From: Waterburya agarophytonicola KI4
GTDB taxonomy: Bacteria; Cyanobacteriota; Cyanobacteriia; Cyanobacteriales; Xenococcaceae
DNA length: 36,453 nt
Assembly: GCF_020640915.1 (NCBI RefSeq)
Contig: NZ_JADWDC010000012.1
Span: forward strand, 1-36,453
Direction: 5' to 3'
Part shown: positions 531 through 9,589 of the stretch, piece by piece
Position numbering within the stretch: the stretch's first letter is position 1
How the letters are laid out: each line of letters opens with the position of its first letter
Notes under the pieces: generated by a model
The model's database searches: none
What the model was told of the DNA's origin: nothing
The model's input: the letters and a program-made list of their open reading frames with translations, nothing else
Position numbers and translations under genes: made by a program

Positions 531-535
531 CCTTT

Positions 536-2019
<1,484 letters not shown>

Positions 2020-7325: not shown

Positions 7326-7670
7326 ATGTCTTCTCCTAAATCTAGCGATATAAAAGAAAATGACCTAGAACAAATATTGATGGAGGTAGAAAAATCCCTC
7401 GAACAACTACAAGAGCGACATACTCAGGTCAAGCAAGATCTAGAAAAGCGATCGCAGATCCAAGAACGTCAGCAAGAGTTAAAAGAGCAACAAAAAGCAA
7501 CGTCTGCTGTCAAACCACTTAAAACAGAATTAAAAAGCTTACAGGAAGAGTTGGATAGTCTGGAATTAAGTCTCGAAAGCGTTTTGTTACCCGATATCTT
7601 TTGGCAAGTAGTGCGGTTTGTTTTTTTGGGAATTGCGATCGGCTGGTTTTTGCATATGTGGGCGAGTTAG
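7326..7670 (+). CDS. Coiled-coil protein with C-terminal membrane anchor
   Basis: A 114-aa protein of unknown function. Residues about 12-88 are charged heptad-like sequence rich in E, K, Q and L (EVEKSLEQLQERHTQ and similar), predicted as a long coiled coil. Residues about 92-111 form one hydrophobic segment (FWQVVRFVFLGIAIGWFLHM). The layout is that of a tail-anchored protein with the coiled coil in the cytosol. ATG 7326 is the natural start. Divergent from the small gene at 7276. The group II intron begins 58 bp downstream, in antisense orientation, so the gene itself is not interrupted. Confidence 0.75.
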   Translation: MSSPKSSDIKENDLEQILMEVEKSLEQLQERHTQVKQDLEKRSQIQERQQELKEQQKATSAVKPLKTELKSLQEELDSLELSLESVLLPDIFWQVVRFVFLGIAIGWFLHMWAS

Positions 7671-7768
7671 TATTGCTGCGCGAAAGTAATAAGTTAAGTC
7701 AATAAGTATTGATTTATTTGGTAATTGATTAGGTCGAGGTAGCTGTTTCCAGCTTACCCCTCCTATCC

Positions 7769-7802
7769 GAACCGTGCTTGTCACTTTCACGACACACGGC
7801 TG
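7769..7802 (-). ncRNA. Group II intron domain V
   Basis: On the minus strand, AGCCGTG pairs with CACGGTT and TGTCGT pairs with GTGACA around a GAAA tetraloop, with a two-base AG bulge. This is the catalytic hairpin with the AGC triad at its 5' base, and no change that would destroy it is visible. Domain VI follows at about 7729-7768, with its own GAAA-capped stem and the bulged adenosine at 7734. Confidence 0.9.
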
Positions 7803-7837
7803 CTCAAACGTATCCACTATTGTCATTAACTGACTTC

Positions 7838-8887
7838 TCAACTACTAAATACAACGGGAATGTCGTCAATCCAAAGGTAGTCAACTTTAGACCATTCCTT
7901 TGCTAATTTCTTGTGGAAAATAGATGATTGTTTCTTCCTAATTTCAGTCATATCTAGGGCTGTTTTAGCGTCGTGACAATGTCCATGAAGGAGTTGAAGA
8001 TTTTCGTAACAATTTTTACCACCAAGGGCGGTAGCAATGATATGGTCTTCTTCTAGGATATCTCCTTCACGAAAGTGTAATCCACACCAGTTACATTTGC
8101 CTTTTTGCTTTTTGAGCTTATAGGCTTTTGAGGGAGGCATTTCGGTATGTCTTCCCATTCTGGTACTCCAGTAAACTAGATTGCCGTCATATGGGCTTTT
8201 ATCGCCTTTAACTTTTACATAATCAGTTGAACTGCTACCAAAGTCTCTATGCAGAAGTAACCGAAGGGGGTTCGCGTCCCCTTCTTTGGTTGCGAATATC
8301 CAGTTTTTATTACCGATTTTTGTAAAATATTTCTCATAAGCAGTTTTGAGACTTTTACATCGGTATCTTCCCCAAGCTCTTAATTTCTTAAAGACTAGAT
8401 AGTCTTGAAGTACGAACTTGTTAGTTGTAGAGGCATCAGAAAAATTGTAGTAGTTGCACCATCCTCTGATAATGGGATTTAATTCTCCTATTAAAAGGGC
8501 TTGTGGTGAATGTTTGTGTTTCTTGACTACTTTCCTAATGCTTTCCTGATGTTTTTTACAGGATTCTTGGGAAGGGTTAATGATGGTTTTAAAACCTAAT
8601 ATGTCACCGTTTGTTTTATGTGCCGAAACATATTTTCCCGCAGGGTATTGTCGAATGTTGTATCCGAGAAAGTTGAATCCTGCTTTTTTATCCTCGCTTA
8701 ACTCTGAATATAGAGTATGAGCGATTCTTGTTTTGGATGGTTTTAATTCCAAGCCAATGTCTTTTAACCATTCCGAAATTAAATCTCGGCATCTTATGAT
8801 TACATGAAGATCTTGATGTGTTACTACAAAATCATCAGCATATCTGATGTCGATCCCTACCAGTTTTTGTCTGGGGATGTAGTTGGG
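7838..8887 (-). pseudogene. Group II intron-encoded protein, C-terminal part
   Basis: About 350 codons of a reverse transcriptase/maturase/endonuclease without its beginning. The frame opens after a TAA at 8888-8890. It starts with GIDIRYADDFVVTH, the reverse-transcriptase catalytic block 5, at about 8800-8860. Then come RT6-7 (KTRIAHT, FNFLGYNIRQ) and maturase domain X (GELNPIIRGWCNYYNFSDA). The end is a complete HNH endonuclease: CNWC, EEDHIIATALGGKN, LLHGHCHDAKT. RT blocks 0-4 are absent, so reverse transcription is lost. The maturase and HNH parts have no stop codon, so decay after the deletion may be recent. No convincing start codon or ribosome-binding site is seen; a TTG at 8752 is the first possible one in frame. 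Confidence 0.92.
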
Positions 8888-9453
8888 TTACTTCGTTCCT
8901 ACAGTCATTTGTTTGAGTTCTTTAGGGCTTACCTATCCACCTATGTGAACTGAATGTGCGACACCAATAAAGTTAAGACTGGTGCTTCTAAGTTCTGTCT
9001 GATGTTCCAGACGTAGGGTGTGGTCTTTTACACCACTAGCTTATTCCCCCTACTCAGCCTTAGAGATGGTTCGGACGGTAATTTGTTTCCTACCCCACGA
9101 TGTCCTTTTCCTTGATATTATCTCAGTCCAGGGTCGGATATAGAACTCTTGCTTGCGGTTAGGCGTTTTCAGCAATTATCGCTCTGTCCGCTTTTACTCC
9201 CGCAGATTATATCTAGGTTATCAGTCCAGATATAAGGGAAACTTCTCTTCCTCGTCACCGAGGAGGACGCTGTATGCTTTTCTACCCCGCACAAGGGCGC
9301 AAAGACTTGGTTTTCTAGGTTACTCACCTCACTTTGATGAACTGTAAGTTATCATTTCTAAAGGATTAAAGTGCGAACTCAAGTCAGGGTGACTTACTTT
9401 AGAAATGTATTCTATCCCTCCATATGTATGGGTTTCAGAATAACGAATCGCAC

Positions 9454-9589
9454 TAACTTTTTAGACTGGGAAGTCCCGCGCTACAAAGCGAGGGCGACGG
9501 ACGGGCGGTATAAACGCCTGGGGTTTCCCCAGGGGACACGCCCTCATGAAAAGCCTAGGAGTTGAAAGGCTCAATGCCTTGAAAAAGAG
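9454..9589. other. GC-rich structured spacer between intron and TnpB element
   Basis: This is the 5' exon side of the intron. It contains a strong hairpin CCTGGGG-TTT-CCCCAGG (9517-9533), nested inside a weaker GGGCG...CGCCC pairing (9503 to about 9543), and much GC-rich sequence unlike the AT-rich surroundings. It may be the 3' remnant of an older IS200/IS605-type element. No protein-coding frame is convincing. Confidence 0.4.

Follow-up and report, generated by a model that had tools for sequence, protein, structure and literature searches.

Is a group II intron that has kept both of its ends while its middle is gone still a mobile element, served in trans by the protein of a relative, or is it what remains of an intron that has stopped moving? 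The window analysed here (the whole stretch of DNA examined, 36,453 nucleotides from Waterburya agarophytonicola KI4, contig NZ_JADWDC010000012.1) raises this question at 9453-7728 on the minus strand. A preliminary description made from the sequence alone had recognised an internally deleted group II intron there, which is borne out by Rfam, by an extra ~1 kb in related introns and by Pfam. It had also suggested that the intron might be moved or spliced by a relative's protein, and this suggestion fared less well. We propose, with a probability of roughly 0.87, that an ordinary retrohomed intron was later broken in place by an internal deletion and is now a relic. The parts of the element and its flanks are:

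9453-7728, minus strand: group II intron, whole element, 1,726 nt, retaining its two ends, domain I, domain V, domain VI and matching exon-binding sites
9454..9468, minus strand: 5' exon with IBS1 (9460-9454) and IBS2 (9468-9461), at the tip of the left flank of a TnpB element, on the basis of the pairing test and homologous intron-free flanks
8848..9453, minus strand: intron nt 1-606, comprising the 5' end GTGCG and the domain I region up to the junction, with EBS2 (9062-9055) and EBS1 (8975-8969) inside
8845..8852, minus strand: deletion junction at intron nt 602-609, ambiguous by a few bases, with 995-999 bases missing relative to three related introns
7838..8848, minus strand: 3' part of the intron-encoded protein, with reverse transcriptase (RT) from just before YADD (8848-8654), domain X/GIIM (8557-8324) and HNH (8095-7958)
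7769..7802, minus strand: domain V hairpin with AGC triad, from the RF00029 match
7728..7766, minus strand: domain VI with a bulged A at 7734 and the intron 3' end ...CTAAT, from the RF00029 match and the fold
7671..7727, minus strand: 3' exon side, an AT-rich stretch adjoining a small ORF (7326-7670, plus strand)

The 5' end at 9453 reads GTGCGATTCGTT, and relatives at other loci begin with the same 12 bases or nearly so. At the other end, the Rfam model RF00029 fits 7804-7728 on the minus strand over model positions 1-77 of 77 (47.1 bits, cut-off 40) and thus accepts the domains V and VI that had been seen by eye. The bulged A at 7734, read by eye, is the probable branch point. Introns in the genomes that we label G162, G268 and G244 align with it at both ends, as far as nt 1725-1726, and so does one in G263, as far as nt 1722, in agreement with the proposed limits. 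The domain V bulge (hairpin at 7802-7769) is AA, or AAG in the Rfam register, as it also is in introns whose RT domain is whole and in a multi-copy family of RT-less introns, whereas the available text of PMC4424553 gives an AY bulge. A lesion was considered as the reason for this bulge and rejected: relatives with a whole RT likewise have an A where a pyrimidine is usual, and so do 27 of 44 pattern matches, the window hairpin among the 27 and at least three of the 44 being plainly not domain V. The A therefore looks like a feature of the lineage. The Rfam models of domains I-IV matched neither the window stretch nor any of four relatives and are therefore uninformative.

IBS1 (AAAGTTA, 9460-9454) and EBS1 (TAACTTT, 8975-8969) form seven of seven Watson-Crick pairs, as had been claimed; a random 7-mer pairs as well within the 37-nt EBS1 region with a frequency of 0.002. 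The pairing of IBS2 with EBS2, previously called plausible, comprises 7 of 8 positions by eye (one G.U, one mismatch) and 6 of 7 when scripted. Exon-loop pairs of each intron were compared with swapped pairs. Out of 17 sequences with the 5' end aligned, 13 introns were entered (C22, G149, G206 and the duplicate G244b were left out), and G244a yielded no loop, leaving 12; the evidently wrong EBS1 loop of G280 was retained. The own EBS1 mean was 5.83 versus 5.33 (p = 0.012), although for three of the 12 introns (G046, G227b and G050) the own loop paired more poorly than the other loops did on average. The observed EBS2 sum was reached in 0 of 20,000 permutations, two of the 12 introns being worse with their own loop. 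Because own pairs beat swapped pairs, the window intron occupies a site that fits its own EBS elements.

The 5' boundary is also supported by the intron-free left flanks of related TnpB genes, which are homologous from 9454 in G120 (L106) and from 9460 in G233 (L105), the two of five TnpB loci compared (L105-L109) with homology up to the intron. An orthologous empty site was not to be had, as the flanking genes stand apart in relatives, which restricts the comparison to the TnpB gene's left flank. In a pattern search of 13 genomes for this left flank, the window was the sole match. Both the TnpB gene and the ORF at 7326-7670 lie on the strand opposite to the intron.

Relatives were sought in 291 genomes of the order, 50 of which had a match at E <= 1e-20, and two candidates were scored per genome. 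Relatives align to nt 1-601/606 and resume from nt 605-612 of the window intron, with 995 (G046), 999 (G263) and 995 (G162) extra bases between the matching parts and, by the same arithmetic, about 1,091 in G272a. The junction, which the preliminary description had placed near 8845-8880, is corrected to 8852-8845. The G046 intron was used for the junction only; its alignment ends at nt 1493 and no domain V is listed there, and it was rejected as a complete, full-length relative. G162:C23 and G263:C40 are full-length relatives from the same taxonomic family, aligning at ~69-78% identity to nt 1-603/606, 605/606-1495/1505 and 1626/1627-1722/1726. Unlike the window intron, they contain the block described below and open frames of 626 and 632 amino acids. 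Related loci in named records are cyanobacterial in 7/7 cases, including Pleurocapsa and Xenococcaceae MAGs.

What fills the gap in relatives is a conserved block, followed by the first RT blocks from the ORF start onward (nt 760 in the G046 intron, nt 753 in that of G263). The regular expression GATGGG...AAGC...GACGT...CGC matched this block in 10 of the 43 sequences searched, nine of them distinct, and was unmatched in the diverged sequences of RT-less introns and of the other introns of the same genome. In the nine aligned block sequences a 5-bp hairpin is paired in 45 of 45 cells, and three of its five pairs are changed on both sides. Its covariation score was 0.578 versus 0.313 in shuffled alignments (0 of 500 shuffles as high); in one measure, the number of further pair types, it fell short of the shuffled mean (4 versus 5.9; 500 of 500 at least as high). 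We take the missing block to be domain II, J2/3 and domain III, named by its likeness to Ll.LtrB, and read the loss in this way, although the Rfam models gave these names no confirmation. The earlier claim that domains II and III and the early RT blocks are gone stands as regards the absent block, to which J2/3 and the ORF start have to be added. The window intron thus shares with bacterial RT-maturase-HNH introns a domain V with AGC triad, a domain VI, the GUGYG 5' end and the pairing of EBS1 and EBS2 with the 5' exon. It lacks their complete ribozyme, the conserved block of relatives that we read as domains II, III and J2/3 being absent from it.

The remaining protein has a frame that is open from 8887 and ends with a stop codon at 7838, and Pfam recognises RVT_1, GIIM and HNH in it, each above cut-off, in keeping with the YADD, domain X and intact HNH noted earlier. 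Only positions 150-205 of the 205 of RVT_1 are matched, falling short of a complete RT with all its blocks. Standard start codons occur in frame at just four places, TTG at 8752 and ATG at 8158, 8140 and 7951; none lies near the 5' end of the remaining ORF. Private changes were counted and dN/dS was set aside because many synonymous estimates were saturated. From RT5 to domain X the window intron has 19 private amino-acid changes and 9 synonymous ones, versus a summed 28:33 in relatives (5:14 in G207, 9:7 in G244a and 14:12 in G268; Fisher p = 0.069). This is a weak hint of relaxed selection on the RT-X part, though it is not significant and G268 comes near the window ratio. In the HNH tail the window has 4 amino-acid to 7 synonymous private changes and the three relatives 15:15.

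The preliminary description had proposed a search of the same genome for full-length relatives. Such a search did find relatives, but the closest, C22:38132-38981 (85% identity over the first 360 nt), is itself deleted, and next comes C142, at 64% identity over the matched part; no closer intron in the draft has a whole RT domain. The C22 deletion differs from that of the window intron, and HNH is the sole domain retained. Its HNH part is closest to G149 (dN 0.076) and G162 (0.106), versus 0.393 to the window. C22 (G000:C22:38132-38981, or L020:2133-2982) may thus be a chimera, since its 5' part is window-like and its HNH part resembles the G162/G149 sublineage. The C22 5' part also contains a perfect 36-nt palindrome. 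A 26-nt stretch common to C22 and C111 (L020:2105-2130 and L025:1709-1734) forms the 5' exon in C22, and the exon of G162:C23 looks similar (ACTGGCGTTAA...CATG), which suggests a repeated homing target.

Besides C22, deletions were found in introns of G259 and G227. The G227 intron (L060:131-1819) has an in-frame RT deletion that fuses RVT_N and positions 1-80 of RVT_1 to HNH in a 306-amino-acid open frame; there is an additional deletion in domain I, and a TnpB-like coding sequence follows the 3' end by eye. Three other loci (L057, L059 and L061, from G268, G280 and G244) are twintrons, with an RT-bearing group II intron inside the RT frame of the outer intron and the RVT_1 matches divided near profile position 123-125. 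This insertion place looks recurrent across several genomes of the genus (for example G268:C106 and G249:C23). It was considered as the site of the window junction and rejected, since the latter lies at RVT_1 position 150.

Introns without RT were surveyed through the 133 RF00029 matches in 13 genomes of the genus, with an RT match counted within 3 kb upstream of domain V. An RT match of at least 550 nt accompanies 73 of them and a shorter one 11; 49 have none, an uncounted share of these lying at contig ends. Regions around 20 of the 49 were fetched, of which 13 are whole and seven are cut by contig ends. Six of the 13 whole regions (L080-L083, L089 and L098) have ~0.83 kb in common at 77-93% identity over aligned pieces, with several copies in G162 (L080-L083, L089) and one in G198 (L098). 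No RT or HNH match is listed for these six, which are presumably ORF-less introns. Two of the six, L080 and L082, can be aligned directly, over 77-79 bases, with the domain II/III block as it stands in G280 or G272a. Multi-copy introns without RT thus occur in the genus and, as judged from their sequences, look different from the window intron. The survey is a useful by-product, in that it places families of RT-less introns alongside relics such as the one studied here.

If the window intron were non-autonomous, spliced and mobilised in trans by the protein of a relative, its retained ends, EBS1, EBS2, domain V and domain VI would be expected, and the RT-less family just described would be a precedent within the genus. 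The model case is Thermosynechococcus elongatus, for which the available text of PMC2882425 describes 17 ORF-less introns with one common DIVb deletion that can be mobilised in trans; the 0.83-kb family is possibly parallel to these TeI3 introns. The window intron resembles TeI3 as a cyanobacterial intron that has lost most of its ORF by internal deletion, but all 17 TeI3 introns are cut within DIVb at identical break-points, whereas the window intron is also without the DII/DIII block and one copy was found. ORF-less introns in general are called rare in bacteria in PMC4424553. Those mobilised in trans keep the ribozyme, lose only the ORF and carry the same deletion in several copies at different sites, and none of this was seen here. 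Even L080 and L082 still have the domain II/III block. A second copy of the window deletion was found neither in its own genome, a draft with some introns cut at contig ends (C142, C87), nor in 291 (with two candidates scored in each) or 388 genomes of the order. The junction pattern used in the 388 genomes (24 bases, at most three mismatches, with more diverged copies outside its reach) matched in two, namely at the window and at one three-mismatch site in another family, and by our own estimate about one such match is expected by chance. With the nearest whole RT domain in the genome belonging to an intron of 64% identity, mobilisation in trans, as suggested in the preliminary description, is improbable.

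It is very unlikely, too, that the remaining ORF has been retained, once the RT was lost, to encode a free HNH endonuclease in an HNH-only intron or gene. The Pfam HNH domain does survive in three of the four RT-deleted introns read (window, C22 and G227), and the changes in the window HNH tail lean towards synonymous ones; however, HNH is lost in G259, the difference between RT-X and HNH in the window is not significant (p = 0.146), and the ORF has no start codon near its beginning. An internal Shine-Dalgarno sequence with ATG for an HNH-only protein was rejected, because the GGAG-7nt-ATG before HNH is unspecific: the same AGT serine codon is present in 21 of 21 introns, four of which have a leucine codon in place of the ATG. 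A wider version, in which the lineage would repeatedly lose RT and keep HNH, with HNH-only or HNH-plus-maturase introns homing by double-strand-break repair and DII/DIII supplied in trans by full-length relatives, we regard as highly speculative. A collapsed or mis-joined repeat in place of a real deletion is the least credible reading. Drafts of this kind do have contigs broken by introns (C142 and C87 both stop within one, and seven of the 20 fetched regions were cut by contig ends), but the 100.7-kb contig runs through the element, and a search of the assembly turned up no near-identical parent for the sequence on either side.

The in-place deletion is in accord with the combination observed, a recognisable intron with essential parts lost and a single copy, as is typical of degenerate group II intron relics. 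A full-length cyanobacterial intron of the RT-maturase-HNH type would have retrohomed into the site under the guidance of its EBS elements, coming to lie just upstream of an IS605-type TnpB gene and antisense to it; such a normal insertion is indicated by the intact ends and the matched EBS/IBS. An internal deletion of ~1 kb would then have placed the codons just before YADD directly after the 3' part of domain I. Having lost J2/3 and domains II and III, along with the beginning of domain IV and the early RT blocks, the intron would neither splice efficiently nor be mobilised, and it would drift as an intergenic relic. We infer this order of events and the domain names, and deduce the loss of splicing from the missing parts. 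Weighing against a relic are the well-kept domain V, domain VI and EBS and the clean HNH frame.

Decayed group II introns are already documented in bacteria: the available portions of PMC3522654 and PMC4496777 describe, respectively, inactive copies whose genome generally has no counterpart of the intron and inactivation in place with loss of the 3' end. The window intron resembles both, but it differs from the latter case in that both ends are retained and the middle has been lost. It illustrates clearly how a mobile bacterial intron can die where it sits while the elements that recognised its target stay legible, which allows the history of its insertion to be read; beyond this example and the survey it has little significance. 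Elsewhere in the window, a TPP riboswitch (532-629, plus strand, 62 bits) lies upstream of an ORF at 622 that, by eye, looks like ThiC.
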